Assembly (NCBI GenBank): GCA_015178975.1
Contig: WHVD01000064.1
Coordinates: forward strand, 186,001 to 250,000
Length of the DNA stretch: 64,000 nt
Reading direction: 5' to 3'
Origin: Hysterangium stoloniferum
Taxonomy: Eukaryota; Basidiomycota; Agaricomycetes; Hysterangiales; Hysterangiaceae
Shown: positions 1 through 60,410 of the stretch, piece by piece
Layout of the letters: every line of letters begins with the position of its first letter
Numbering within the stretch: position 1 is the first letter of the stretch
Notes under the pieces: generated by a model
Databases searched by the model: none
Told to the model about the DNA's origin: nothing
Seen by the model: the letters and a program-made list of their open reading frames with translations, nothing else
Program-made: the position numbers and the translations under genes

Positions 1-2379
1 GTCTCCATGAGCACGAGAAGGATCGCCTGTGCAAACATATATCCACGTAACGAGGCGCTACGAGCACTGCGAAATGCATTGGTCATCCATGTCTCCCTGA
101 TCGCGTGATTGTGCTTTTGGAAAACCGAGCTGAGGGAGAGAACTACCAATGGTTCGGAAATGTATACAGGATAGTTCATATTACGTTTGAATTGCCAAGG
201 GTTCGTCATCGTGTCCAAAAAACCTATGCCATACCCAATTATGTCGTGCATATGGCCTTCGATGGGGATGTACGTAAGTTCACTTCCTAAAGTCCACCGC
301 ATAAGAACGTCAACTAAGTTTCCTAACAATTCCTCTCCTATCAAATATGCGGTCAGTCCATACATCAGTAAAAAATATATCACACTTACTGTTCTGTTCT
401 TTGCAAATGTGGTTCAAATCACAAATTGGGCTATAATGGCCGATCATCGAGGACATCTCAAGGGAAATGGGGGGTTCACCAGCCTCCAGTTCGATTGTGT
501 CAGTGAGTTTGAATCCAGTCAACTGCTCAACGAACGAGGTGAAGACACGGTGACGCGGAACATTTTCGAAGCAGAGGAAAAGCTCTATGAGGCTAGCTGT
601 AAGGCGGTGACTACAATATGAACGATGAGAATGAATCTTGTAGGGTCAAATGATAGACATACCGGCCAGAAAACCAGTACATTATACGCTTCAATAATAG
701 TCGATCTGAGTCATTTTCGGAGAGAGTGAGGTATCGGCGAATATAATCCTCTTGAGAAGAATCACCCCTCGTGAAACGCCCAATATCAGTGAAGACTAGG
801 GGCCGTGCAAACCTGTCTGTCCGTTTTGCGGAAAGAGAACCTGCGGTATTCTGCACCATTTCCATCGACAGACCCGTTCCCGAAAGAATAATCCCAGATA
901 TAATTTCAGAGTCCAAAAAAAAACTATACATTTCATGAAGAATGGGGCGCAGATCTGACCCAGTGTCGGAGCGAAAGTACTCTTTCAAATGGTCGGCAGC
1001 CACCTGTGCCTCGTCGATCACGGCGAATAGAGGTGTGAATCCCGCTGGAAACAAATCTTTCCTCTTATTCATAAACTGATTTAGCATGGAATTGATACTT
1101 GTGATCATGATATCAGTGTCAGCGTGCCGAATGGTTTGAAGGATTGTGACGAAGAGGTCGTCACCCTTCTGGGACAAGCGGGGTGGCAAAGCTTGAGCAA
1201 GAACCCATCGCCGTCGAGCTACCGTAGCATCTGTGTTAAGAGGAAGGTATTTCACAAGTTGCTTCAGGACGAAGACGCGCGCAAACAACAACATTGCGAA
1301 GACGCGGTCTGCAGATTCAGCGTTTTTGCTATGCCCATCACTGTCTCCTGTGTTCCAGGTGCTCATAGTTTGCAACATTTTCGTCGCTACATTGAAGTCG
1401 TTGGAGCCAGATGCTGGGCCTCCTGTGTTCTTGCACGAAATATAAAGGCCCCAATTCCAGCAAAGACCGTCAAGTGAAAGGCGTGTTTTACCCGAGCCAG
1501 AAACGCCGAATAGATGGCTGGAAAGAGCAAGATTAGGATGAGCTGTTTTTACAATTGTGCGGATGCCACGAACACTGTATCATCGATGAACAATTTTTCG
1601 ATCCGCTTGTTGTCCACATGCCTGCCGAGGTCGTGAAGGAGAAGAATTGGATCAAGGGGCAGATAAACGCCGAGGTCTGTAACTTTGTCGTGACGTTGGA
1701 TTGAGTCGAGATATCCGTCCAATTTCCCAATAGCCAAGTATTTAATGTAGTTCTCAAAGTCTTTAAACGCGGCGGCAGTCTTCCTTTCCGTCTGTTCGAG
1801 GGTGAGACGTGGGGATAATTCTAATGAAAACTGTTCACAACCATCCACACTAAAAGGTACACGACCTACCATCGGCTGCATTTCTTATGCGTGTCCCGGC
1901 AGGCGGGGTGTGCGGTGGTTGGCTGTGGTCTGATTGGAGCATCTCTAATAAGAGCGATGAGGACAAATGGCGCGACAGTAATAAACTAGAAACTTACCAA
2001 GGCTCCGAATCTCTGAAAACGATTCTTTTTGTAAACATTCGCCCAATAAGTTGAAGAGCTCATCGTTCTCCTCGATACACTTGCGAACATTGCGACGGTT
2101 GTCTAGGGCGGGGAGGAGAGGTGGATTGGCCGTTTCAGCAATTTGAGACAGAAGGGCGACAGCCAATTCGACATCGAACTCTTGCAGGCCTGATTGGACG
2201 GCCACGCGAATTACGGCAATATTAGTATTCTTTAACACCTCACCATCTTCCCTCTGCTCGTCTTCAAGAGAGGTGCGTCGTGTGGTCGTACGAAGAAGTT
2301 TCTTGGTTGAGGATTGGTTAGCAGACTGCGAGGATGAAGACCGCTGGGTATCATGAGGGAGCTGTGGTCGATTGGACAT
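1..2379 (-). CDS. P-loop NTPase of a basidiomycete-expanded family; C-terminus beyond the left edge
   Basis: Reads right to left from the ATG at 2379. Exons that keep one frame: 2379-1998, then a second exon starting at 1883 or 1865 (two usable acceptors), then to 663, 610-390 and 337 to the window edge. Introns 611-662 and 338-389 are each 52 nt GT-AG, and joining across them gives a continuous protein. The first ~125 residues are Ser/Thr/Arg rich. Walker A is GVSGSGKT (about 1507-1484) and a Walker B-like LFAVIDEAQ lies near 1031-1005. After intron 611-662 the text GRHRLTASLIELFL follows, as I recall it in many agaricomycete NTPases, some attached to Crinkler-type proteins; no Crinkler header is seen here. 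The frame changes just before Walker A: either a 35-nt intron (1518-1552, with a CTAAT branch-like site) or a one-base lesion. Function unknown beyond probable nucleotide binding. Confidence 0.75.
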
Positions 2380-2939: not shown

Positions 2940-3731
2940 CTACCTTAGCTGACAAAGTTTGATCTTCGGAGACAACTGATTGTGGCGAGTGATAGGGTGG
3001 TGGTCTGCCCAGTGGCACTTTGGTGGATGCTGGTGACCTTGCATTGTCATGGTCACCTGGCTAATGTAAATGAGAACTGAGGGAAAACTTTGTAACTCAG
3101 ACTTACAGTATATGTATAGAATGCTTTTGATGTCACATACACAAATGTATGTGGAGGTTGTGGACTGTAGTGGACCAAAACAGGCACATGATGCAGACAC
3201 ATCACACTGTATTCTAACATACATTACACTGTATCATACCTTACACACATATACCCCATGTCTCACTTCCATATTGTTTTACCTATTTATCCTTCCATAC
3301 TCACAACACCATACCTCAGTTGAATCACCCACTTGTGTCAACTGAGCATACTTGTTACAGGTTATGGGCCTCAAACAAAGCTGCTAAACTATTGACATAT
3401 CAGAAATTGACTGACAGACCTGACAGAACTTGTGGACACATGTTGAAAACTGTCACACACTGAGCTGAACTGTTGCCACACTGAGCTGAAAAATCTATGC
3501 TGCACTGAACCCAAACCCTGAACCTGAACTGTCAACCATTGTTCACCCCTGACTGACTAAACCTAACCCCTGCACATACCAAAAATGAATATGTCTACTC
3601 AGCCTGCCCTATTCATGCTGCAATCAGAAGACCATTTTGATGGACATAATTGGCTCACATGGCACAACACCATTTGGTCTGCTGCAGGTGCATAAAGGGT
3701 CAAAAGATACCTGGATAGAACCCTTCCCCCA
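2940..3731 (+). mobile_element. 5' fragment of a Ty1/copia-type retrotransposon (LTR end, PBS, start of gag)
   Basis: A probable LTR end (TTACA near 3359) is followed at once by GGTTATGGGCCTC, a tRNA-type primer-binding site of the kind used by copia elements. A gag-like reading frame starts at 3585 with HFDGHNWLTWHNTIW, the usual N-terminal pattern of copia Gag. It is stopped by TAA after 36 codons, continues in frame, and is cut at 3732 by the GGAGG-ended element. The LTR start is not defined; 2940 is a guess. No other part of this element is seen to the right of 13919. Confidence 0.5.
3585..3731 (+). pseudogene. copia Gag N-terminal fragment
   Basis: About 48 codons beginning at ATG 3585, with one TAA stop after residue 36. 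The segment with two tryptophans three residues apart (NWLTWHNTIW) matches the start of copia-type Gag (UBN2/gag-polypeptide-like). The 3' part is lost at the insertion of the element starting at 3733. Confidence 0.5.
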
Positions 3732-4092: not shown

Positions 4093-4921
4093 TGTTAAGG
4101 GACATGTGGAGCTTAGTGGAGGGTTTCTGGAGAAACCTGCAGGTAATCTGGTAGGACTTGGCTTCAGCTTATAGGCTGCGCCCTTGTGAGAATGTGATGT
4201 CCAATTTCAAACAGGTGGATGCAAAACCCAGGGAGTACAGGATAGTTGAGAAGTCGAGAGGTTGGGTGGTCAGAGGTTGGGTGGTTGGAGGTTGGGTGGT
4301 TGGAGGTTGGGTGGTTGGGTGGTCAGATTGTTGGGTGGTCAGAGCCTGTGGGCTCTGATGAGGTCAATAGAGTAGAATATATGCTAGAGTTACTGGGGGA
4401 GAACTTAGTTGATTTTCTGACTGGATTGTATGTACAAGCATCAGCTAGATTATATAGACTGTGGAATGTATGCAATACTAAATCTGGTAATAATAAAACT
4501 AAAATAAGTAATCATGAAACAAGGCAAGTAAACACCAAACTACGTAGGTGTTAGGGACAGAGTGGAATGGAGGCAGAATCCAAAACATGAACAGGTCATT
4601 TGACCCATAATGGGAACAGGGCTCAGTTAGAGAGCTGATGGGTTGTCTGGGTGGAGGCTGGTGACTGGTGCATGAAATGGAGTTGGACATATGCAGGTTA
4701 GACATGTGCAGGTTCCAGCAGAGTTGGGCATAGACAGGTTTGATGTGTGTGGGTGGTTTGTCTGATGACTGATGCACAAGACACAGAGGATTGGGAACAG
4801 ATAGGTTTGATATGTACAGGTCTGGAGCCTGGTGGGCTTTCTGGGTGATGACAACCTGGTATAGAGAGTCAGGTGCATGTAGGATGGGATCCAGACCCCA
4901 GTGGGTTTTCCAGTCCTAACA
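4093..4921 (-). repeat. 3' LTR of element A
   Basis: 829 bp, ends TGTTA and TAACA on the plus strand, collinear with 12380-13164. It has a short tandem of GGTTGGGTGGT-type units (about 4258-4340) that differs from the other LTR. The GGACTTGGCTTCAGC leader motif lies near 4157-4175. The adjacent tract 4922-4936, read on the minus strand, contains AAAGGGAGGG, a good polypurine tract for plus-strand priming. Confidence 0.9.
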
Positions 4922-5102
4922 GTACCCTCCCTTTATGCTGAAGTCCCTAGAGGCTCTAGAACTTGATAAAGTTTGTTGGTTACATGTATGTGTTAAAGAG
5001 TCATGTGATCTGGAAGGTAAGGTTCAAACATGATGAGCCTATATAAAAATTGGATTTTTATAATTTCTTTTCTTCTTTCAAACTGCCATCATCTTTTTTG
5101 AC

Positions 5103-6359
5103 ATGGGGCCAAAACCAATGCCTTGTAAACCAAATGCTGTTGCCGGGCCCTCCATGGGCTCCCCATATCAGGCTCCACTCTCTGCTGCCCAAATCTTGGC
5201 ATAGCGGGAGGAGCAGCATTGACAAAGGGAAGAAGTATTAGAGTAAACTGAAAGCTGGGGAACCACAGTATGAGACTCTCTATGTAGGTACTAAGTAGCT
5301 TAGATAGAGTGGTATAGAATATAAACCAGTGATATAGCTGGGCTTCCAGTTGAGGTTTCTACCCCTCAACTGGACTAACTATATACTGTTATACTGTACT
5401 ATATGGTCTGTGCACTGGTCTGTAGGACTATCTGCTTAGGAACCATCTAATAATAACTATCAAATGATGTGAACCAGTTGAATCTATAAAGACACAAAAG
5501 GAGATATAAGGTCATAGCTAATTGTATATACTCATATTATAACAGGAAGTGGAGAAAAGGGCCAAAGAGGTTGAGGAGGAATTGGAGAGGGAGTACCAGG
5601 TGGTGGTGGTCATGGAAAAAGAGGCTGAGGAGAAGAAGAAGAAAGAGGAGGAGGCAGTGTGGGTTGCCACAGAATGTGCTAAAACAGCCATGGAGAGGAC
5701 TGTGATTGCTGCAGGAAAGGTAAGTCCCAACAATTTACATATGTGTCCTTACTGACTCTGCTTTTTAGTGCAAAGTGGTAGAGGCTGAGTTGGAGTCCAA
5801 GGGGGAGCCAGAGAGCTCTCAAAAGGTAAGTGGCAGGTCCACAGGGATGTCTGGGGCTGACCAAGTCAATAGAAGGCAAGGAAAATGGCTCCAGTCTGTT
5901 TGGGGATAAAGAATGACCCACAGTGTTCCAGTTGCAATAACTGGAACATGGACTGCTTCTGAAAGTGTGAGTGGGGACCAGGCTGTTGGCCATGTGTGCA
6001 CCTCAAAGCCAGGTGCTCACTGGTTCACAAGCCCATGGGGTCTGTGCATGGGAAGCAGGTGGCTTGGCAGAAAGGCCTGGGGGTTTGGAGGAGGTTTTGG
6101 GACACATAGCCATGGGCATAGAGGCCCAGAACTGGTTGCTTGAAGAGAGCAACTGAGTGCAGGGGGCCATTTTGGAGACTCTCTCTGCAGGGAGTTCTGG
6201 GGATTCTTGGCAGAGTATGGTGGGTATGTTTATCAGGAGCCCCAGGTTGGGAGTTCCAAAGAGGCCAGGGATGAGGATGGGTTAGGTGAGGAGGTGACAG
6301 AACTCCAACAGGAGTTTGATAAAAATGGGCAGAAAGAACTTCCCATTAAAGTAGAATAA
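5103..6359 (+). pseudogene. Antisense spliced gene carried by element A: coiled coil plus Zn2Cys6-like cluster (decayed)
   Basis: Runs opposite to element A, between its chromodomain and 3' LTR. ATG 5103, exon 1 to 5719, intron 5720-5768 (GTAAGT..TTTTAG), exon 2 5769-5825, intron 5826-5872 (GTAAGT..CAATAG), exon 3 to TAA 6357-6359. Splice sites match the copy in element B. Exon 1 encodes a Glu/Lys/Arg heptad-like stretch (EKRAKEVEEELEREY and onward). Exon 3 has cysteines spaced C-x2-C-x6-C-x9-C-x2-C-x6-C (CSSCNNWNMDC then CWPCVHLKARC), the fungal zinc-cluster spacing, with one TGA inside the linker. A ~0.3 kb insertion (about 5235-5546) and several stops and frameshifts disable this copy. The role is unknown; DNA or RNA binding is inferred only from the cysteine spacing. 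Confidence 0.65.
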
Positions 6360-6539
6360 AAGAAAATAATAAATTTTTTTTTTTAATTTCAAAATAAAAG
6401 TGTGAAACTAAAAGTCCATGGGAGGTCTGCTAAGACTAAAATAAGACAAGTCAGAAACCTGTAAAAGCAAAGAGAGACATAGGGTGACAGGGAAAAATGT
6501 AGTGAATCCAACATATACATGGGGTCCATGGATTGTGGC

Positions 6540-8419
6540 TAGAGAGAAGATAGTGGTCTGGGTTTGAGTGGGTACGCTGTGTGAAAGTCAGTGATGATCT
6601 CCATGGCATTACTGAGTTCCATGGCCAAAATCCATGATGTCTCTTCATCAGTACCCTCGTAACCCACCTACTTGATGAAGTAAAGCAGTTTACAAGTGTA
6701 TTGATGCTTATCTATTTTTGAGTCCAAAATCTGTGAGATTTCAAACTCAGGTTCTCTGTCAATAATGACTGGAGGGGGGTGGAGATTGCATGTGGTCCGG
6801 GATAGTATTTGCAGTACACAGTTCTAGCATAGAAACATGAAATACCAGGTATACCACACACATGCTATCTGGAAGCCATAGGGTCCATGAGACTGAACCT
6901 ACTTGTTCTATTATTTCAAATGGACCTAAATATTTTTCAGCAAGTTTCTTTGATGGATGGGTAGTCTGGAAGAATTGAGCTTTGACAAAACACAATCACC
7001 AATCTTGAAGTTGGGTGACGTAATCTGGTTTTTGTCCACTGAATACAGATATTGCTCTTGGGCAGATTTTATTGTGGTCCAGAGTTCCTCGTGGAGCTCA
7101 TGGAGGTCCGTGATGACCTCTTGAGCACAGGCAGAGGTAAGATTCCATTCTGGGTGTACCATAATATTTGGATTATACCCTTTATTTACAAAGAATGGGG
7201 AAACACCGGTAGTGGCCAAGGGTGCATTGATGTAAGAAATTCTGCAAGTGGTAATAGAAATTCCAATTGTCCTGTTGATAATTGCAATATACACAGAGAT
7301 ATTCTTCCAATGTCTGATTGACACACTCAGTTTGTCCATCACCTTCCAGGTGATATCTGGACATGAAGTGTAACTTTATTTCCAAGGATTCCTGAGGAAT
7401 CTAAAGAAGTGGAATACAAATCTGATCCTCAATGAGAAGTTACATGGGATGGGACTCTGTGCTTGAAAAATACATTGATAATAAAAAGTTCTGCTAACTG
7501 CACAGATGTGATGGTACCATGTGTAGGGATGAAAATACCTTGTTTTGAGAATCTGTCAGCAATGAGTAGAATGGTGGAAAAGCCTTCAGAGTCTGGTAGG
7601 TGTTCAATGAAATTGATAGAGATAGAATTCCACAGGTATTCCAGTACCAGTAGTTGTTTCAGAAGGCCATATGGCTTGTGATGCTGTGATTTAGAATGTG
7701 GACAAGTAATGCAAGATTTACAATAGTGCTTAACAAAATCTCAGAGTCTGGGCCAAGTATATTCTCTTCTTATTATTGATAGAGTCTTGTTGAACCCAAA
7801 ATGTCCCAAGAGTGGATGGTCATGTTTGTACTGGAGAATCCTGAGGCAGAGGCCATCAGAGTCTGGTACATATATGTGATTGTCAAGTCTAATGAAACTA
7901 TGCTGGTCAAGAGACCACTGGGGTTGACCAGGGTCCATGGGATTGTCAAGGTGTCCTTTACTTATCAGATCTAGCAGAATTGCCGATAAAATATCTTGAT
8001 GTATTTCTCGATATCCATAATTATAATCCCACAGATGATGGGATGGATGAGGAAAGTTGCACAGACTGATGAGGTAAGCTGCTGGTTTGTGAAAATGGGT
8101 TTCAAGTTGTGCAGGTTTATCATGGCATAGTCATTGCTCCCCTCTTTAGGACAGATATCCCATCATCTAGTTAATGCATTGGGTTTGCTGCCAAGGTGGC
8201 TGGGTCAAAAACAGATGATCATATTGAAAGTGGACAGGTATTCAGACCAGCAGGCCTGCCAGTGGGTCAAAAGTTTCATAGTCAAAAAATAGTCCAGGTT
8301 TTTGTGATCTGTTACAATGTCAATTGGAATTCCTGTGCCCTCCAAATAGTGTTGCCAGGATTTGAAGGCTGTGAAAATCACTAGGAGTTCCTTGTCATGG
8401 ACTTCATAGTTGAGCTCTG
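6540..8419 (-). pseudogene. Element A integrase and chromodomain, 3' part of pol
   Basis: Read on the minus strand. The integrase zinc region (HDHPLLGHF, then CKSCITC) lies near 7840-7690. The catalytic core region has DSEGFSTILLIADRFSKQG but not a clean DDE set. The C-terminal part (NAPLATTGVSPFFVNKGYN) is at about 7240-7150. A chromodomain (VGYEGTDEETSWI) is near 6670-6620 with a TAG just before it. It is collinear with element B 30130-31780. Many frameshifts and stops make it non-functional. Confidence 0.8.
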
Positions 8420-9141
8420 TGTTAAGAACTAGAAACTGACTAATGCCGGTGGCCGACGGGGACTGATCGGAAGGACTTGGCTTCAGCTTATGTGCTGCGC
8501 CCTCGCAATTATCCGTTGGTTGTCCTTAAATTTCAGACGGGTGAAGACTAAATCCTAAGAAGAACCTTTCGGCGAGATACCGATCGGAACCGAAGGACAA
8601 GTCAAGTGTCGGGCCAAGGGGTCGGGGCCGAGAGTGGGCAAGCGCATGCGAAGGCGGATGGGGGATTCTTAGTATGAGACTGCTGCAGATGTATGAGGGT
8701 ATTCTGAGTTGATATTCTGATTGCCTAGTTACTACAACTACACCGGGTTCATATACAAGTAACAGGCATCTAGAAAGTACTAATGGGGAGAAGGGCAGAA
8801 AACGGTATTAGCATTAAGCTTGACTAGGAACGGGAAGTTTATGATTAGTTCGGAGGCCGATGATAACCGATAATGGAAATTACGATAAAAGGAAATAGTT
8901 CGAGGACTACAAATATAGATAGACATATGTGAAACATAGAGTGGAACGGATCAACATAATAAAAGGGACGTATCAAAACATAACCAGACAGAAAGGTGTA
9001 GTCGGGTTTGATTGACCGGAGGGCATATGTCAGCATCAGGGGACCAACGGCTTCCGAGATCTTGTCTTGTTGAAGATGTATAACTACGATATACCATCGG
9101 GGACCATCAGCGTGCGAAGGGTTGACGACACAGTCGTAACA
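8420..9141 (-). mobile_element. Solo LTR, family F, inserted in element A RNase H
   Basis: 722 bp, TGTTAAG..GTAACA, flanked by CTCTG (8415-8419 and 9142-9146). It breaks the RNase H reading frame of element A. On the minus strand a TATAT box at 8755 is followed 33 nt later by AATCAGAATAT (8722-8712), the predicted RNA 5' end. Its CG content is much higher than that of element A, so it is a later insertion. A second F LTR is at 42537-44862, and the end of a third, with its PBS, is at about 51820-51968. Confidence 0.9.
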
Positions 9142-10560
9142 CTCTGGTCCAGAAAAAGTCCAGGACAGAAAAGCCACAGAGTGGATTTCTCCATCAGAGT
9201 CCTGGATAGACAAAATTGCTTTAAGTGCATAGTCCAAGGCATCCATCTCAACAATGAGTGGAAAGTCTGGTTTCCAATGTGAAAGGATTGGAGCTGAAGA
9301 AAAAGAATCTTTTAAAAGATTGAAAGCTTTTGACACTTATCATCAAAATTCCATGGAGCACCCTTGCGTGTAAGATGAATAAGGGTGACTGTGACCTCGG
9401 AATATCCATGGATAAACCATTGGTAGAAATTGGCAAAGCCCAGGAAAGATTGTATATCTTTGACTTTTCTGGGTCCTGGCCAATCTTTGATGACTTGTAC
9501 TTTAGCTTCATCCATATGGAGTCTGTCAGATCCCATAATGAAACCTAGATATTCCACAGAGTCTGTGTCAAAAGTACATTTTTTACCATTTGCAAATAGA
9601 CCATGTTGTCTGAGTCTCTGGAGAACTTCACAGACTTGTTTGTCATGTTCTGTGGGGTCCTCAGAGTAGATAAGAATGTTGTCCAAGTAAACAATGACAT
9701 ATACATCAAGCATGTCAGAGAAAATATCATTGATAAAATGTTGAAAAACAGACAGAGCATTGGTGAGCCCGAAAGGCATCACCAACCACTCAAAAGCCTC
9801 ATAATGGGTTCTGAAAGTGGTTTTCCACTCATCTCCCACAGATATCCAGACCCAGTGGTAGGCATGTTTAAGGTCTATTTTGGTATAAATCTGGACATTC
9901 TGCAGAGCATTGAGCAGGTCAGATATAAGTGGGAGTGGATACTTTTTTTTTGTGACAGCATTGAGTCCTCTGAAATCAACACATAGTCTAAGGGATTCAT
10001 TCTTTCTCTTAACAAACAGAACAGGTGCTCCAAAAGGAGATTTCAATCTGATAAAACCTATGGACAAATGTTCATCCAGGAAATCCTGGATTGTGGAAAG
10101 TTCCATGGAGGACAGTAGGTAGATATGTCCAAGGGATGGCTGGGCACCTTCTTCAAGGTTGATTTTTAAGTCATACTCTCTGTGGGACAGAAGCTGGTCA
10201 ACTTTTTGCTTACTAAAAACATCCACAAAATCATGGTATTTCTCAGGGATGCCTTCTAGGTCAGCAGATTGCTCAGATGCTGGGGTTGAAAAATGTCTGG
10301 TTGCTTCATCAATTTTCAAATTGATAGTGAATGCCTGGAATCCATCCATTTTCATAGCTCTGATAAACACTGCAGCTTTGATAAGAGAAATGGACGGAGG
10401 TGCCATGGGTTCTGGGGAAGCCATAGGTGCCATAGGGATCACAGGGGCCCCCAAGGCTGCAGGTGCTGGGAAGGCCATGGGTGCTGTGGAGGCCATGTCA
10501 GATACAGTAGTCTCAGTGCCACAGGTGTCTGGAAAGTTATACTGTTTGATACCCAGTCAA
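9142..10560 (-). pseudogene. Element A reverse transcriptase and start of RNase H
   Basis: A long minus-strand reading frame (10496-9312) covers the RT palm and fingers: [47 protein letters not shown], then YLDNILIYSED at about 9689-9665. The second Asp of YLDD has become Asn, which removes a catalytic metal ligand. Thumb and connection motifs (SFLGFANFYQWF) follow, then the first RNase H strands up to the solo LTR at 9141. It is collinear with B 28280-29880. Confidence 0.85.
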
Positions 10561-10599
10561 TCAACAGATTGTATCGGGTAAGCCAGTTATGTCCTAGGA

Positions 10600-12345
10600 C
10601 AACCAAGCAACTTGAGTCTCACTGGGTCACATAGAAAGTGACCAACTGAGATGTTCCACATGGGAACCAGATAGATAGGTCGCAAGCTTGGGTGATAACT
10701 GAATTCCTTGTGCCATCAAAAAGGCAGAGTCTGACTGGGTTGATCAGATATGTTGACAACAGATTATTTTCTGTGAATTCTGTTTCTACAAAGCAATGAA
10801 TAGAACTGGAATCTATGTGTGCTGAAAAAATGAATTTTGGAATCATATTAGACATAAGTTCAATAAAAAATGAGTCAGAGTTCAAAAGAGCAGATGTATG
10901 AAGATAGGTAAACTTGTGAATGTGTGGAGAGGTAACACAACCCCCAACCCATGTGGAGTCTGTGGGGATTCTGTGGAGGAAATCTTGGCTACACAACCTT
11001 TTGCAGAGTTTGCTTTCACCAACAGACATTCCAGAACTCGATGACTGGGTTTTCCACACAAGAGACAAAGACTGTTGTCCATACAACACTGTCTTTCTTG
11101 TGGAGTCAGTTTACCATCAGGTCTGAGCTTGCCTGTAAGGTTGGGCTTTCTGGTTTGCTTGCTGGGTTGCTGACCTTTGTTGTAGTTGTAGTTGTAGTTG
11201 TAGTTGTAGTTGTAGTTGTTGTTGTTGTAGTTGTTGTAGTTGTTGTTGTTGTTGTAGTTGTAGTTGTAGTTGTTGTTGTTGTTGTAGTTGTAGTAGTAGT
11301 AGGAGTAGTAGTAGTAGTAGTAGTAGTTGTTGTTGTTGTTGTAAAATTTTTTGTTGTTCTTCTGATCAGAGTAGTGGATGGAGTTTTGGTTGCTGGTAGA
11401 TGGGGTGTTGTTGTTGGGTTTAATGGCCATGGACTTGTTGACCTTGTTCATGGAGGTCTTGCAGGCAACTTCCATGCAACATTCCCAATAGTGTGTGTCC
11501 ATATTTTGAGCCTTGAGGTGCATACAACAATGTTTTGGGTTTGCCATCTTCTCCTTCTGAGACTTCATCCTTGAGGTGGGATGGCAGACTGGCATAGAAC
11601 TGGTGGTGGAGAGTGGAATCACCCCATCAACAATGAGCTGCAAGATTGTTGAATTGGATGATGTAGTCCATGATGTGCTGGCTGTCCTTCATGTGAAGAT
11701 TGGTGAGGCTATTCTCAGCTTCTCAGGTCAGGTCATACAGGCCAAAGTTTGTTTCTAGCTCTTCAACAAAAACATTCCAATCTTCAAGCCAGGTTGGCTC
11801 TTCCTCAGAAAGTCTGCTAAAAGCCAGTTTGAACCATTTCAACATGGATCCCAAGAGGTATGAGAGTGCATAGTTGACTTTTTGGGAGTCTGTGGAGAAT
11901 GTGTGGAGAATGTGGTGGATTGATCACAGAAATTGAAGCAACATTGCATGAGGAAGGTGGAACATTTGTTGGGATTGGAACCTGTGAAAGGTTCCAGAGC
12001 ATTGATGTTTGACCATGGAGGTTCCAGATCCTTTTTCTTGTTCTCTCCAAGCATGTGATCCATCAATCTTTCTATAGTGATTGCCAGAAACTTGGAAGTG
12101 GGATCTGAAAGTGGCAGTCACTCATTAGATGGGGAATGTTCAACACTCTTGCCCTTGTCAGGGGCTGTGGACTCATGCTTGTGCACGGAATTGTCCAGGT
12201 TTTCTGGAACTTCTTCATTATGGGATTCAGCCATGGTGTCCAGCTGGTTTGTGAGTGTCTGACTGGTATACAAAGTAAGTGGGGAATGAATAGTTGAAGG
12301 TCCAGGTATGTTTTCCTGTACAGGTGCTTTTCTTCTTGGTGGCAT
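10600..12345 (-). pseudogene. Element A Gag with Asn-rich linker and CCHC knuckle, running into protease
   Basis: Starts MPPRRKAPVQENIPGP at 12345. The central Gag is broken by frameshifts. A repeat-encoded Asn/Tyr-rich tract (11343-11170) joins Gag to a CCHC zinc knuckle, C-x2-C-x4-H-x4-C (CLLCGKPSHRVLEC, 11067-11026). Protease follows with IDSSS in place of the expected D-S/T-G (near 10820-10790), so the active-site glycine is lost. The plus-strand poly-Val reading frame over the tract is only a shadow. Confidence 0.8.
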
Positions 12346-12366
12346 ATTGAACAATCTGTGAGTCCA

Positions 12367-12377
12367 GGTCAGAAAAT
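12367..12377 (-). other. Self-primer-type PBS of element A
   Basis: Two bases inside the 5' LTR end, the minus strand reads ATTTTCTGACC. This is the exact 11-nt complement of GGTCAGAAAAT in the element's own LTR (12679-12669), which lies 34 nt downstream of a TATATAA box. No tRNA-like TGG start is present. Confidence 0.75.
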
Positions 12378-12379
12378 AC

Positions 12380-13164
12380 TGTTAAGGGATGTGCAGAGCT
12401 TGGCAGAGGGTTTCTGGAGAAACCCACAGGTGATCTGGTAGGACTTGGCTTCAGCTTATAGGCTGCACCCTCATGAGATTGTGATGTCCAATTTCAAACA
12501 GGCAGATGACAAACCCGGGGAGTCTGGGGATAGTCAAGAGGTCAAGAGGTCAAGAGGTCAGGTGGTCAGGTGGTCAGGTGGTCAGGTGGTCAGATTGTTG
12601 GGTGGTTGGAGCCCATGAGGTCAATAGAGTAGAATATATCCTAGAGTTACTGGAGGAGAACTTAGTTGATTTTCTGACCAGATTGTAGGTACAAGCATCA
12701 GCTATATTATATAGACTGTGGAATGTATGCAATACTAAATCCAGTAATAATAAAACTAAAATAAGTAATCATGAAACAAGGCAAGTACAGTAACACCAAA
12801 CTAGGTGTTAGGGACAGAGCAGAACAGAGGCAAAATCTGAACCATGACAGGTCATTTGACTATAATGGGAACAGAGCAGGAGTGGGGTCCAAAACATGAC
12901 AGGTTGTTTGACCATAACAGGCATGGGGCTCAGTTAGAGAGCTGATGGGTTGACCGGGTGGAGTCTGGTGATTGGTGCATGAAATGGAGTCAGACATAGG
13001 CAGGTTAGACATGCACAGGTCCCAGTGGAGTCAGGCATAGACAGGTTTGATGTGCACAGGTCCCAGCAGGTTGTCTGATGACTGATGCAGGAGACACAGA
13101 GGATTGGGAACAGATAGGTTTGATATGTGTGGGTCCAGAGCCCGGTGGCTTTCTGGTCCTAACA
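12380..13164 (-). repeat. 5' LTR of element A
   Basis: 785 bp, TGTTA..TAACA, with a CAGGTGGT-type short tandem at about 12550-12600. The promoter reads on the minus strand: a TATA box at about 12713, predicted transcript start near 12679. The leader hairpin motif is near 12440-12475. Confidence 0.9.
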
Positions 13165-27119: not shown

Positions 27120-27193
<74 letters not shown>

Positions 27194-27420
27194 CCAACAA
27201 CAACAACAACAACAACAACAACAAGGGTCAACAGTCCAGCAAACAAACTGGAAAACCTGACCTCACAGGCAAACTTGGACCCAATGGCAAATTGACCCCA
27301 CAAGAAAGACAACATCATATGGACAATAACCTCTGTCTCTTGTGTGGAAAACCCAGTCATTGAGTTCCAGAATGTCTGCTGGCAAAAGCAAACTCTTCAA
27401 AGGGTCAAACAGCCAAGGCC
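26128..27420 (+). pseudogene. Element B Gag with poly-Asn linker and CCHC knuckle
   Basis: Starts MPPRRKAHTQASLPGP. The conserved Ty3-type Gag core reads ALSYLSGSVLKWFKLAFSRL through FVEELETNFGPYD and ITDYIVQFNNLAAHC. An (AAC)n tract (27121-27222) encodes about 34 residues, nearly all Asn. The zinc knuckle is CLLCGKPSH-stop-VPEC near 27330-27372. The in-frame stops (26578 and 27361) are TGA, both at positions that read as arginine or are open in related copies. It would package element RNA if intact. Confidence 0.85.
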
Positions 27421-28226: not shown

Positions 28227-29034
28227 AAAAGCTGACCGGCTTCCACCCCACAGAGAATACGACTTAAAAATTGATCTCGAAGAAGGTGCCCAGCCACCCC
28301 TAGGACATATTTACCCACTTTCATCCATGGAACTTTCTGCAATCCACGATTTCCTGGATGAACATTTGTCCATAGGCTTTATCTGACCCTCAAAGTCTCC
28401 TTTTGGAGCACCTGTTCTGTTTGTCAGAAAAAAGGATGGATCCCTTAGACTATGTGTTGATTTTAGAGGACTCAATGCTGTCACCAAAAAGGATAAGTAT
28501 CCACTTCCACTTATATCTGATCTGCTCGATGCTCCGCAGAATGCCTGGATTTACACCAAAATAGATCTCAAACATGCCTATCATTTGGTCCAGATTGCCA
28601 TGGGCAATGAATGGAAAACCACATTTAGAACCCGTTATGGGGCCTTTGAGTGGTTGGTGATGCCCTTTGGACTCACCAATGCTCCGTCTGTTTTTCAACA
28701 TTTTATCAATGACATTTTCTCCGACATGCTCGATGTATGTGTCATTGTTTACTTGGACGACATTCTTATCTACTCTGAGGATCCTGCAGAACACGACAAA
28801 CAAGTCTGTGAAGTTCTCCAGAGACTCAGACAACATGGTTTATTCCACACGGACTCTGTGGAATAGCTGGGTTTCATAATGGGACCCAACGGACTCCGAA
28901 TGGATGAAACTAAAGTGCAAGTCATCAAAGATTGGCCTGAACCCTGAAAAGGTAAAGATATACAATCATTCCTCGGCTTTGCCAATTTTTACAGATGGTT
29001 TATCCACAGATATTCTGACATCACGGTTCCCCTT
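28227..29034 (+). pseudogene. Element B reverse transcriptase, 5' part
   Basis: Fingers and palm: [47 protein letters not shown] and an intact [11 protein letters not shown] at about 28752-28784. TGA stops interrupt at 28384 and near 28945, and a TAG at 28864. It is cut at 29034 by the solo LTR. Confidence 0.85.
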
Positions 29035-31787: not shown

Positions 31788-32602
31788 TGTTACAACCGGA
31801 AATCCCGCCGGACTCCAGGCACTAACTTATACGTACCTGCACCCTATACACACCCATTATCAGTTTACTGGAATTCCTGCTGGACTCCGTACATCAGACT
31901 TGTCTACACTTGACTTCGTTACGTTGTGTTTCAGTCACCGGAAAACCCACCAGACTCTGTCTCTGTCTATATCTGACCTCGTCCCATGCGTCAGTCACTG
32001 GACCCCATTCAGAAAACCTGTCACCTTTCTAACAGAGCCCCGTTCCCATTGTAGTCAAATGACCTGTCACGATTCGGACTCCGCTCCCACTCCATTTCCC
32101 GTTATGGTTTATGATTTGTCACTATTTGGACTCCACTCCGTTCTGTCCCGTTCCTAACACCAATTTGGTGTTTACTATTCCTGTTTTATGTTTTGCTCGT
32201 TTAGTTTCATCATTACTGGATTCGGTATGACATTCACTCCACGGTCTATTTAAACTGGCAGATGTTGTATATACAATCCAGTCAGAAAATCAGCTTAGAT
32301 TCCCCCCAGTAATCTAATACATTTTCTGCTCTAAACTCCTACTTGAATTACACCGCTCACACTAGTTGGAGCCCACGGGCTCCAGCACATCTATCTCTCT
32401 CACCAATCTCAACTCATGACCCACGACCTCCGACCTACAACCCCTCGACCCACAATCTCCACCTGGACTACCCGGGATTCCCATCCACCCGTCTGAAATT
32501 GGACAACACGATCTAGCGAGGGCACAGCCTATAAGCTGAAGCCAAGTCCTACTGGATATCCCATGGGTTTCTCCGGAAACCCGCCCTGTACATATCCTAA
32601 CA
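31788..32602 (+). mobile_element. Solo LTR of the A/B group nested in element B, TSD ACACC
   Basis: 815 bp, TGTTACAACC..CCTAACA, flanked by ACACC (31783-31787 and 32603-32607). It has the leader hairpin near 32523-32550 and the AGTCAGAAAAT primer site at about 32281. It lies between pol and the antisense gene. Confidence 0.9.
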
Positions 32603-32792: not shown

Positions 32793-33775
32793 TCAGTCTA
32801 CATTTATGGGGCTGTCCTTTTTCCCCACCTCCTTTTTTCCCACCTCAGCCATCTCATCGGGTAGCTCCACTATCTCCATGGGCACCCCGTCCTCATTCGA
32901 CCTGGCATCCTCAGAACTCCCGGCCTCTGGCTTCTCATAAACAAACCTGGCATACTCCACTAGGAACTTGAAATGTTCCGAGCAGAGTGCGCAGAGATCA
33001 TTCACCATTACTACATGCACCTTGTTGCTCTTCTGGAGCAACTCGTTCTGGGCCTCAATGCCCTCAGTGATCCATCCCAAGACCTCTTCCAAACCGGAAT
33101 GGCCGTCTGTCCCACTAATGTCCCACTAATGTCCCATGCCCCGGACCCCGTGGGTTGCTCGTGGACGAGTGAGCACCTCACCTTGAGGTGCATGCACTGG
33201 TAGCACCCCGGTCCCTGCCTGGACTTCCGATTACACTCAATGTTCCAGTCATTGCAACCAGAACACCATGGGTTGTTCCATGTCGGTAGGCGGACTGGTG
33301 CCACCTTCCTTGCCTTCTGTTGATTTGGTTAGTTACCATGGATATCCCACGGACCGAGACTCACCTTGTAAGGGCTCTCCAGCTCCCCCTCGGACTCCAC
33401 CTCTGTCGCCTTGTGCTGAAAATGACAAGTCAGTCAAAAGAAAAACGACAAGTTAAAGATTTTGGGACTTACTTTGCCTGTGATGACCACGGCCCTCTCT
33501 GCAGCTGCCTGGGCTTTCTCCATGGCAATCTGCACAGCCTCCTCCTCCTCATCCTTCTTCCTCTTCTCCTCTGCCACTTTCTCCACGGCCACAGCCAATT
33601 CCCTATCCAGGGCCTCCTCGACCTCCCTGGCTTTTTTTTCCACCTCCTCTCGCTGTCGGCATTGTTCCTCCCACTGTGCCAGAATTTGGGCAGTGGTGAG
33701 AGGTGCCCAGTATTGATTGCCTGTGGAGGGCCTGGTGGTCGGCAATGGCCTTTGCGGCATTGGTTTTGGTCCTAT
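32793..33775 (-). CDS. Antisense spliced gene carried by element B: coiled coil, Zn2Cys6-like cluster, acidic C-terminal region
   Basis: Opposite strand to pol. Exon 1 33775-33473, intron 33416-33472 (57 nt GTAAGT..TTCAG), exon 2 33365-33415, intron 33317-33364 (48 nt GTGAGT..AACAG), exon 3 33316-32793, ending TGA. The first codon is ATA where element A has ATG; the next ATG is six codons on (MPQRPLP). Exon 1 encodes a long Glu/Lys/Ala coiled-coil-like stretch (EEVEKKAREVEEALDREL and on). Exon 3 has CSGC, six residues, C, nine, CYQC, six, C: exactly the Zn2Cys6 pattern. An 11-bp direct duplication (33109-33119 and 33120-33130) shifts the frame; without it the reading continues into GLEEVLGWITEGIEAQNELL. 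The acidic tail ends with Lys/Asp. Function unknown; a regulatory nucleic-acid-binding role is inferred. Confidence 0.65.
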
Positions 33776-33985
33776 GATGTTGAAGATGGGGGTAATAAAG
33801 AAGAAGAAATTTTCATTTTTTTTAATTTTTACATAGGCTTGTCGTGTCTGAACCTTACCTTCCAGATCACATGACTCTTTGACACATACGTGTAACTGAC
33901 ATGACTTTTGACACATGCATGTAGCCGACAAGAACCTTATCGAGGTCTAGAGCCTCTTTGGGACTTTGGCATAAAGGGAGGGTAC

Positions 33986-34806
33986 TGTTATGACCAGAAT
34001 TCCTGCTGGACTCCGGGAACTAACTTATACGCACCCACACCCTATAGGCACCAATTGTCAGTTTACCAGAATTCCCACTGGACTCCGTACATTAGACTTG
34101 TCTATGTTCGACTTTGTTATGTTGTATATCAGTCACCGGAATACCCACTGGACTCCATCCCTGTCTATGTCCGACCTCGTTCCATGCATCAGTCACCAGA
34201 CCCCACTCGGAAACCCCATCCCTCTAACAGAGCCCCATTCCCGTTTTAGTAAAATGACCTCTCACAATTCGGGCTCCACTCCCACTCCATTTCCCGTTAT
34301 GGTTTATGATTTGTCACGATTTGGACTCCGCTCTGTTCCGTCCCATTCCTAACACCAAATTTGGTGTTTACTATTCTCGTTTTATGTTTTGCTAGTTTTG
34401 TTTCATTATTACTGGATTTGGTATGTCATTCATTCCACGGTCTATATAGTCTGGCAGATGTTGTACATACAATCCAGTCAGAAAATCAGCTTAGATTCCC
34501 CCCAGTAATCTAATACATTTTCCACTCTAAACTCCTACTTGAATTACACCACTCATGCTAGTTGGAGCCCACGGGCTCCGGTGCATCTATCTCTCTTATT
34601 TATCTCAACTCCTGACCTCTCGACCCACGACCTCTGACCTCCAACCCCTCGACTCACAAACCCCTCCCGGACTCCCTGGGATTCCCATCTGCCTGTCTGA
34701 AATTGGACAACACGATCTCGCGAGGGCGCAGCCTATAAGCTGAAGCCAAGTCCTACCGGATATCCTGCAGGTTTCTCTGGAAACCCACTGTGTACGTACC
34801 CTAACA
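33986..34806 (+). repeat. 3' LTR of element B
   Basis: 821 bp, TGTTATGACC..CCCTAACA. The preceding AAAGGGAGGG (about 33973-33982) is the polypurine tract. TATA box and primer-site copies are present at about 34444 and 34477. Confidence 0.9.
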
Positions 34807-58562: not shown

Positions 58563-60410
58563 GTGGAAGAGGAATCGATGCGAGTCGCAAACTCAAAGAT
58601 CACCCATTTCATAGAAAGCATCTCCAAGCTGGAAGCAGACAACACCTCCAGTCCTCAACCATCTGTGGTATCCTCAGGGAACGAGATGGTAGATGACTTT
58701 GATCCCACAGGCCCAAAGACTTCGGAAGTTCCTTCCTTGGAGAAGCTTTCCTCGGAGGATCTGCATAAATTGGTCAACTTAGGACCTGACGTCCCTCCTG
58801 ACATTATGCCTCACCTTAGGGCAATATTGACTAAGAACGTGCAAGTGTTTGGAGTTGACAGAAGACTGGGCCAGGTAGACAGCAAGGCCACTATCCTGCT
58901 GAAAACTGATGTGCAACCAGTGTCTGTACTGATGTTTCCAATTTCCCCTGCCAACAGGAAGGTTATAGATGAGCAAATGGACACCTGGTTCCAACAAGGA
59001 GTCATCGAGCCTTCAAAAAGCCCTTGGGGAGCACCTGCCTTCATAGTCTATGGAGGATATCTGAAAACTATTAAGTATACCAAATTCTAATATACTCTAA
59101 AGGTCATTTAAACATCTGGGATGTGATTCAAACATAATTTGGTTTTTAAAACTTTCAAAAAGTTTTAAACTCTCTCATACATTACAAACTAAAGAATCTT
59201 TCTGGACACGAGTAGACAATAAAAAAAATTAGTAGTTTGAAACACTAATACTTTTAAAAAGTAGATACCTTTAGATAGTCCATTCCATGCATATGTATAT
59301 CATTGGCACCTCTAAATACATATGTATTACTTCGGAATGGATCTGTCAATCTGAACAGATTTCTACTTGATTCAACATACCCAGAATATATAGGTAATTT
59401 CACTTAATAAAGAAGGCCATAGGATGAAAAATTTCCAATGACATCTCATATATTTTACTAGGAAATAACTACATTACAGCTTTTAAAAGACAAAGTACTA
59501 ATAAAAGTATTAGTAGACATCTGTAAAAGGAAGGAAATTATATACAATAGAATTTGTTAAATAACTATGGGTTGTATAAGATGTAATATGGAGAACTATT
59601 TCTGATGGTTGTTTTTTGATGATATAATTGTTTCAGAATAGATATTACTATTTAAAGATGGTGTTTTGTAAAAATAAGACTTTTATTAGTAAATATTTGA
59701 GACTATAGTAATTATAAACACCCTCCTATCATAATAATAAGCCTCACGTGGTCATTGATCATCAAAAACTGAACAGCCTTACTATCCCAGACGAGTTCCC
59801 CTTGCCCCGACAATCAGAAATTATGCAAGCACTCTTGGGATCCAATGTTTTATCTTCGTTTGATGCCCTAGCTGGTTTTACCCAACTAGAAATGCTGGAG
59901 GAAGACTGACACAAAACGGCCTTTCGATCACATCGAGGACTATGGCAATTTAGAAGGATGCCTTTCAGATTGAGGAACAGACCTTCCATTTTCCAGTGAG
60001 TCATGCAAAACACGCTGGCACCCTATCTGTGGATATTCTGTCTAGTCTACATAGATGATATAGTAATCTTTTCTAAGACCTGGGAGGATCATATCGAACA
60101 CCTGGACCGAGTATTACAAGCAATAATTTCAGCTGGCATCACTCTTTCTCCCAAAAAATGCTATGTAGGCTACAACTCTATTCTCCTTCTTGGACACAAG
60201 GTGTCACGGTTAGGCTTTTCAACCTACCAAGAGAAAGTACGAGCCATATTGGAACTAGCAACCCCAACTAAGGTGTCTGAGCTTCAACGTTTTCTGGGTA
60301 TGGTATTGTACTTCTCGGCTTACATACCCTTCTATGCATGGACTGTATCCCCACTCTTCTCGCTACTCAAAAAGGGCACACAATGGTCTTGGGGAGTAGA
60401 CCAGGAATGA
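58563..60410 (+). pseudogene. Element E reverse transcriptase, split by a GGAGG element
   Basis: Fingers: VIDEQMDTWFQQGVIEPS, SPWGAPAFIVY at 59014-59051; then after the insertion NKPHVVIDHQKLN from about 59735. The palm has an intact YIDDIVIFSKTWEDH near 60049. TGA stops at about 59908, 59998 and 60408. Removing the insertion with one TAT restores the frame, so the catalytic parts are all present apart from stops. Confidence 0.85.
59052..59726. mobile_element. GGAGG/CCTCC-ended element, copy 2, TSD TAT
   Basis: 675 bp, GGAGGATATCTG..ACACCCTCC, flanked by TAT (59049-59051 and 59727-59729). It is the uninterrupted counterpart of copy 1 (3733-13919). A/T rich, no coding capacity. Confidence 0.8.

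Follow-up and report, generated by a model that had tools for sequence, protein, structure and literature searches.

Why should an LTR retrotransposon carry a spliced gene on the strand opposite to its pol gene? The question is raised by two broken Ty3-type elements of Hysterangium stoloniferum, A and B, each of which contains, between its pol and its 3' LTR, a three-exon gene in antisense orientation. They lie in one 64,000-nucleotide stretch of DNA, here called the window. A sequence-only reading of the window had described the same gene in both elements, with two introns (GTAAGT or GTGAGT donors, AG acceptors), the pattern C-x2-C-x6-C-x9-C-x2-C-x6-C in exon 3, and damage to both copies. All of this was seen directly at the places given below: A is broken by an insert and an internal stop and B by a frame break.

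Element A spans positions 4093–13164 on the minus strand and is enclosed by 5-bp duplications (GTTTC). Its 5' LTR (12380–13164, minus strand) was delimited by repeat blocks and by reading its end and the duplication, its reverse transcriptase (RT) segment (9537–10013, minus strand) by tblastn (83.75% to the reference copy L035), and its 3' LTR (4093–4921, minus strand) by repeat blocks, the ends TGTTAA..CTAACA and the GTTTC duplications. The antisense gene of A runs on the plus strand. A promoter-like block (4922–5102), placed from a 22-copy alignment, consists of a purine-tract complement, one repeat unit, TCATGTGA, TATATAAAA and a pyrimidine tract. It is followed by exon 1 (5103–5719), which is broken and split by a high-copy repeat of about 308 bp (inserted at about 5236–5544), intron 1 (5720–5768, GTAAGT..TAG), exon 2 (5769–5825, from the alignment), intron 2 (5826–5872, GTAAGT..TAG) and the likewise broken exon 3 (5873–6359), whose six-Cys cluster at 5924–6016 contains an internal stop.

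In element B the strands are reversed. The RT segment (28423–28878, plus strand; tblastn, 86.9% to L035) has one stop. Between pol and the antisense gene lies a solo LTR (31788–32602, plus strand) with ACACC on both sides, which resembles the 3' LTR (33986–34806, plus strand; from repeat similarity and ends) and belongs to the same family as the LTRs of A and B; the three LTR blocks in the window are 87–89% similar to one another. On the minus strand, the gene comprises a promoter-like block with a purine tract (33776–33985, from the alignment), in which TATGTAAAA replaces TATATAAAA, exon 1 (33473–33775) with ATA where other copies have ATG, intron 1 (33416–33472, GTAAGT..CAG), exon 2 (33365–33415, from the alignment), intron 2 (33317–33364, GTGAGT..CAG) and exon 3 (32793–33316), in which the frame is broken after the cluster (33265–33173). 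A six-frame scan of the whole window found the Zn2Cys6-like pattern in A (5924, with the internal stop) and in B (33265) only. Apart from these, the scan matched poly-Cys reads of one simple repeat at 27181–27223.

Further copies, which the sequence-only reading had made a condition of its claim, are numerous in the genome (111 Mb, 554 contigs). With exon 3 of B as query, at least 150 matches with 74–100% identity were obtained (150 scored of 928 candidates), and a DNA search with A (40 scored of 1,299 candidates) led to 30 loci. After removal of four loci that repeated others, 62 copies were aligned to the natural copy L035. The L035 element has identical 821-bp LTRs and CAGCT duplications, and its gag, RVP_2, RVT_1, RNase H, H2C2, rve and Chromo pieces all score above the Pfam cut-offs. 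With gag, protease, RT, RNase H, integrase, chromodomain, LTRs and 5-bp duplications, the carrier is a Ty3-type chromodomain LTR retrotransposon. The antisense gene of L035 has 109 + 19 + 166 codons and two phase-0 introns of 49 nt. All exons are open and all splice sites kept in 4 of 61 copies by one strict map, from which L016, close to L015, had also been removed; exon 3 is open over at least 150 codons in 21 of the 62. Downstream of other RT matches, L069 and L072 contain a homologue that is likewise built of three exons, with phase-0 junctions and an acidic second exon. Exon 3 of this clade II, as opposed to clade I above, again gave at least 150 matches (150 scored of 376 candidates).

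Two public H. stoloniferum gene models cover parts of the gene: P0002 has the same junction between exons 1 and 2 and omits the cluster, and P0001 includes half of it. Protein searches for relatives returned these two models only, or nothing (37 candidates), and none was confirmed among the viral contigs searched; such searches depend on shared 5-residue words and may miss distant fungal relatives. Similar Cys-rich proteins occur in other Agaricomycetes.

The position of the gene is highly regular. In clade I all 19 RT–exon 3 pairings, drawn from 150 RT matches of 3,086 candidates, are antisense, with exon 3 on the downstream side within 8 kb, at 3,260–3,294 bp. For one further RT, an exon 3 in the same orientation lies upstream, within 6 kb. 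In clade II, the matches listed include 30 RT pairings within 7 kb; all but one, which is same-strand, are antisense (29 of 30), and 25 of these lie at 2,968–2,986 bp. Among the matches listed, the gene thus lies between pol and the 3' LTR and antisense to pol, as is characteristic of an aORF-3R.

Between LTR and ATG a block is conserved that consists of a purine-tract complement, repeats of about 29 bp, TATATAAAA, TCATGTGA and a pyrimidine tract; TATATAAAA is present in 19 and TCATGTGA in 13 of the 22 aligned copies. The 150 bp upstream of the ATG differ from L035 by 5–12% in nine of ten mid and old copies, and in the same nine the introns differ by 9–38% and third positions by 25–45%. In the tenth copy, L018, the upstream difference is 22% and the upstream part looks replaced. 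TCATGTGA and ATATAA are common to clade I and three aligned clade II promoters. We infer that the gene has an antisense promoter of its own.

The splice sites have been maintained to a similar degree. Among the 62 copies, GT at donor 1 and AG at acceptor 1 are each kept in 60, GT at donor 2 and AG at acceptor 2 each in 58, and two further copies have GC at donor 2. The intron interiors vary freely in length among aligned copies. Thirteen young copies contain 33 indels in 1,274 bp of intron and 23 in 11,505 bp of exon, all counted against one reference, so that shared events are counted repeatedly. Young copies decay too, as 17 of those 23 exon indels are frameshifts. The six cysteines are kept in 59–62 of 61–62 copies. 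Copies throughout the genome thus keep frame, splice sites and cysteines, and hence the gene is not a product of chance. The conserved introns would moreover mark antisense expression. That the gene is an accessory gene of the element and an antisense unit in its own right, as had been proposed from the window, agrees well with the splice sites and antisense position kept across these copies.

The claim of past selection likewise withstood the comparison. For exon 3, dN/dS (ratio of means; 17 of the 21 open copies, L004, L022, L051 and L065 being omitted because of differing tails) is 0.22 for young-young, 0.16 for young-mid, 0.17 for young-old, 0.22 for mid-mid, 0.24 for mid-old and 0.31 for old-old pairs (3 pairs). 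Exon 1 gave 0.25 and 0.30 in 17 frame-clean copies. Four unrelated control frames gave 0.74–2.26, and the values of the gene are well below the ratio near 1 that had been named beforehand as speaking against selection. These are Nei–Gojobori estimates from non-independent pairs with large dS and strong CpG decay. The antiparallel frame that shares third positions with the gene reaches 0.23–0.37, yet it contains 2–7 stops in each open exon-3 copy (21 of 21); a different antiparallel frame is free of stops in some young copies, with ratios of 0.78–1.32. By these measures, the antisense gene is real, is under purifying selection and is part of the element.

The protein itself changes in an unusual manner. 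Between clades I and IIa, identity is 87.5% in the RT and 84.1% in the chromodomain, whereas it drops to 35.4% in exon 1 and 30.1% in exon 3. Compared with shuffled sequences, homology between the two clades is firm for exon 3 (z 10.6), weaker for exon 1 (z 3.4) and not supported by score for exon 2 (z 0.4). IIa and IIb are 96.8% identical in the RT and 61.6% in exon 3. Within clade I, 33% of third positions outside CpG differ in exon 3 versus 9.7% in the pol tail of the same copies, and dS is 0.91 (49 pairs) versus 0.25 (35 pairs). The step in divergence is sharp at both gene ends in three of four profiled pairs; L018 lacks the conserved upstream side. At the same loci the pol tail has a dN/dS of 0.24–0.39, and hence the gene is at least equally constrained relative to its own dS. 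Codon and identity comparisons together indicate that selection has kept the gene functional despite unusually rapid change in its sequence. It may be either an old cassette that recombination has moved between element backbones or a unit with faster change. Over all copies, gene and pol distances correlate with r 0.48 (1,182 pairs), a value which is blurred by poor pol alignments of old copies and does not decide between the two. Whatever the role of the protein, such a sharp island of divergence beside pol needs explaining.

The six-Cys cluster offers a first indication of what the protein may do. Zn2Cys6 clusters follow the pattern C-x2-C-x6-C-x5-12-C-x2-C-x6-8-C. The spacing found here fits it, and PF00172 is the best Pfam match, with 19.2 bits at best and 18.8 bits for B, both below the gathering score of 21 bits. 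Three of seven members match PF00172 at E 0.1 or better with the whole exon 3; none of 10 half-cluster pieces matched Pfam when searched alone. The first half of the clade I cluster (residues 13–33) matches profile positions 15–34 and, in one member, the second half (residues 37–52) matches positions 2–16. This is a swapped order, in which the basic DNA-contacting half does not come first. One clade IIa member matches the profile in ordinary order (11.4 bits), and thus the swap is not general; another clade II member gave no match. Lys 45 of the second loop is invariant (61 of 61 copies), and in the canonical first half a DNA-contacting Lys is likewise conserved. Four PDB profile matches, to Leu3 (two sequences), Pho7 and C27B12.11c, are not significant (E 0.38–3.8), and the Leu3 alignment runs through the cluster Cys to Cys. 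AlphaFold2 gave no usable structure for the 66-residue piece of B from the window (pLDDT 43, pTM 0.20). Since the relation to PF00172 is below the cut-off and the halves are swapped in clade I, a DNA-binding regulator is no more than plausible.

The sequence-only reading had placed a coiled coil in exon 1 and had proposed dimerization through it, which our results do not support. Exon 1 has no heptad signal (p 0.74–0.85); with its many Ala, Glu, Arg and Lys residues it forms a charged or Ala-rich predicted helix (46–63% charged). A better candidate for a coiled coil is the stretch after the cluster, with a heptad signal in clade I (p 0.01) and no clear one in clade IIa (p 0.13) among five stretches tested. 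The protein resembles fungal Zn2Cys6 factors such as Leu3 and Pho7 in its six cysteines, in the spacing and register of Leu3 and, in clade I, in a heptad-like stretch and an acidic tail after the cluster. In contrast to them it stays below the Pfam cut-off, has swapped halves in clade I, and no further transcription-factor domain was found in the Pfam searches. If true, the swap would be a structural novelty in a well-known domain.

Some clade II copies have lost the cluster. L068 and L070 keep exon 1 and an open RT frame and lack exon 3, which indicates that the gene is not needed in cis; exon 3 is apparently missing from C101 as well, where the flanks are separated by only some 90 bp. The junctions of L068 and L070 were matched by no other copy (40 scored of 675 and of 401 candidates). 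In the L068 group 14 of 14 two-piece copies have 720–728 bp between the pieces and thus room for exon 3. In the L070 group 36 of 40 scored copies also appear in the exon-3 list, the four absent being C14 (L070 itself), C9, C101 and C515. The loss is thus recurrent and confined to a minority of copies, and seems not to be spread by a shared junction.

Antisense accessory genes as such are already known from plant elements and from fungal Boty. PMC7264820 and PMC11963269 describe plant Ty3 aORF-3Rs (gene23 of maize Grande, rice RIRE2, TRP28 of Silene Retand) as antisense and located between pol and the 3' LTR, as in H. stoloniferum; Grande has a promoter upstream of gene23 and a nuclear product. 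TRP28 is predicted to bind DNA (PMC11963269). Plant aORF-3Rs are present in most copies and their function is given as undetermined, as is the role of antisense accessory genes of LTR retrotransposons in general (PMC7264820). In contrast to them, the gene described here comes from another host kingdom and has a zinc cluster rather than TRP28, the likeness being one of description only. It also has two introns, whereas the word 'intron' is absent from the main text of PMC11963269. Among fungi, Boty-like elements of Botrytis cinerea contain an additional antisense gene, brtn (Zhao et al. 2011, as cited in PMC8365987 and PMC7264820), beside which our gene can be set, again by description only. 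No fungal LTR element with an antisense zinc-cluster gene appeared in the literature listings, which is weak evidence of absence because subscription papers were mostly beyond reach. As far as these listings show, the novelty lies in a basidiomycete family whose antisense gene encodes a zinc-cluster protein and has conserved introns, in the swapped order of the cluster in one clade and in the divergence island. The family provides hundreds of copies within a single genome, no fewer than two diverged clades, a recognizable DNA-binding-type domain and a clear selection signal.

We propose that the product is a trans-acting, DNA-binding regulator of its own element, either an activator or an anti-silencer, and give this reading about an even chance. 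The cluster, the autonomy of the unit, its rapid divergence and the copies that have an open RT but no exon 3 are all in keeping with it. The promoter-like block beside the 3' LTR would drive an independent unit of three exons and two phase-0 introns, convergent with pol, and the antisense RNA would be made from this promoter and then spliced. That retrotransposition has not removed the introns presumably reflects that they cannot be spliced from the sense genomic RNA. The product would then enter the nucleus, bind DNA through its zinc cluster (with halves swapped in clade I), perhaps dimerize through the post-cluster helix, and act in trans on the LTRs or promoters of its own family, most probably activating them or countering their silencing. 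The choice of this direction over repression is our guess. Rapid change in a protein that stays functional would be in line with an arms race against host silencing or with DNA recognition specific to each family. In this family, whether an LTR retrotransposon encodes a DNA-binding regulator of its own becomes a question that can be put to a direct test. A tentative extension, which we regard as rather doubtful, is that the lineage evolved its own class of sequence-specific zinc-cluster regulators, spliced, antisense and half-swapped in one clade, which re-open their own family; the gene would then be a fast-changing cassette, more divergent by far than the adjacent pol even at synonymous sites, and the families regulatory specificities in competition with one another and with host silencing.

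HBZ of HTLV-1 is a bZIP protein and its transcript is spliced; Pfam searches with the pieces of B gave no bZIP family match at E 1 or better. HBZ nevertheless provides the model for the opposite reading, in which the protein damps sense transcription from within the nucleus, as a repressor or a factor controlling copy number. The anatomy is the same, an antisense unit at the 3' LTR and convergent with pol, our protein probably binds DNA, and HBZ is described as antisense with a nuclear product (PMC11963269). A self-repressor is expected to spread worse, yet most recent clade II copies have exon 3 (the 36 of 40 scored copies found with the L070 flanks), and we consider repression unlikely. Quite unlikely, in our view, is a part in the replication cycle, be it nuclear import, choice of integration site or a nucleic-acid chaperone in the particle. 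Such a role has been proposed for plant antisense ORFs (PMC7264820) and the cluster could bind nucleic acid generally, but a replication protein is expected in sense with gag-pol, and pol already has an integrase and a chromodomain.

The selection data bear on two further readings. The introns and the fungal-type domain look host-like, and elements are known to capture genes; both features would be accounted for by a host gene that was captured and is carried as a passenger, its selection dating from its life in the host. The selection is, however, seen between copies of element families and in at least two element clades, and all scored clade I matches (150 of 928 candidates) are at least 74% identical to the element copy, which renders a passenger highly improbable. 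The idea that the antisense RNA and not a protein is the functional product, acting through dsRNA or siRNA, draws on reports that antisense RNA of elements can feed RNA silencing (PMC7264820). With dN/dS well below 1 against frame-specific controls, and with introns and cysteines kept, we find this scarcely credible.

In 36 diverged copies the LTRs keep 0.57 of their CpG sites, compared with 0.84 elsewhere. Such decay is as expected under methylation of the elements by the host and makes anti-silencing attractive. The VANC proteins of Arabidopsis VANDAL transposons are anti-silencing proteins (PMC5735166), element-encoded, sequence-specific and fast-evolving, and serve us as a working analogy only. 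VANDALs, however, are plant DNA transposons, and here a comparison of LTRs with gag-pol and the gene region found no LTR-specific target motif. CGG-N3-CCG was considered as an LTR target, with 5 occurrences in the clade I LTRs versus 0.47 in shuffled sequences and 5 versus 0.16 in IIa. It was dropped, since it is enriched also in gag-pol (12 versus 1.32) and in the gene region (6 versus 0.73); two IIb LTRs contain 2 and 0.

At nine RT loci (L071, L089, L090 and L092–L097) neither gene form was matched in the stretch fetched, where element length may differ. In a tree of 25 RT sequences these nine fall outside the gene-bearing group, together with L081, whose gene content is unscored. The gene-bearing loci group together, along with L002, L082 and L083 (gene content unscored) and with L076 and L091. 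L091 has a degenerate antisense frame with six Cys which, judged from a pattern match only, may represent a third form of the gene.

In clade I, one of at least two diverged forms of the antisense zinc-cluster gene and its carrier elements, the antisense gene is about three times more divergent than the neighbouring pol, even at non-CpG third positions (positions 7151-8554 of the reference copy L035 and homologous stretches). This divergence island may result either from cassette exchange or from a faster rate. Across 36 diverged clade I copies, the LTRs retain a fraction of 0.57 of their CpG sites, versus 0.84 for other sites; judged from the sequences, this CpG loss points to either CpG methylation or a process resembling RIP. 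Exon 1 contains a 21-bp tandem repeat (L035:8041-8108), which gives rise to heptad-length Ala/Glu/Arg repeats in clade I. Despite these repeats, the hydrophobic heptad test of exon 1 was negative.

Clade II elements carry deletions of exon 3, the exon holding the six-Cys cluster, at L068:115-464, L070:251-600 and, apparently, G000:C101:387520-387926. The junctions in L068 and L070 each occurred in just a single copy (among the best 40 of 675 and the best 40 of 401 candidates, respectively), and a short repeat common to both flanks sits at the L068 junction.

Both elements of the window contain insertions. Exon 1 of element A is interrupted by a repeat of about 308 bp (window 5236-5544). Since at least nine other places match solely this stretch, with 91-93% identity (DNA search with element A, best 40 of 1,299 candidates), it is a high-copy mobile repeat. 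In element B, a solo LTR of the same family, flanked by ACACC, lies between pol and the antisense gene (window 31788-32602).

L091 (G000:C42:33172-34672), whose reverse transcriptase (RT) belongs to a more distant lineage, holds an antisense six-Cys frame that is degenerate and has a helix-prone stretch after it. This frame is possibly a third form of the antisense gene. Another retroelement family within the window is marked by a very distant RT at 59748-60194, which is 29% identical to clade I and has two stops. On the minus strand, an open frame of 255 amino acids (window 611-1378) gave no Pfam match at E 0.01 and is possibly part of a host gene. A 197-residue open stretch in pol sense was also found in L071 (803-1394), downstream of an RT that lacks a match to either antisense-gene form in the stretch fetched.
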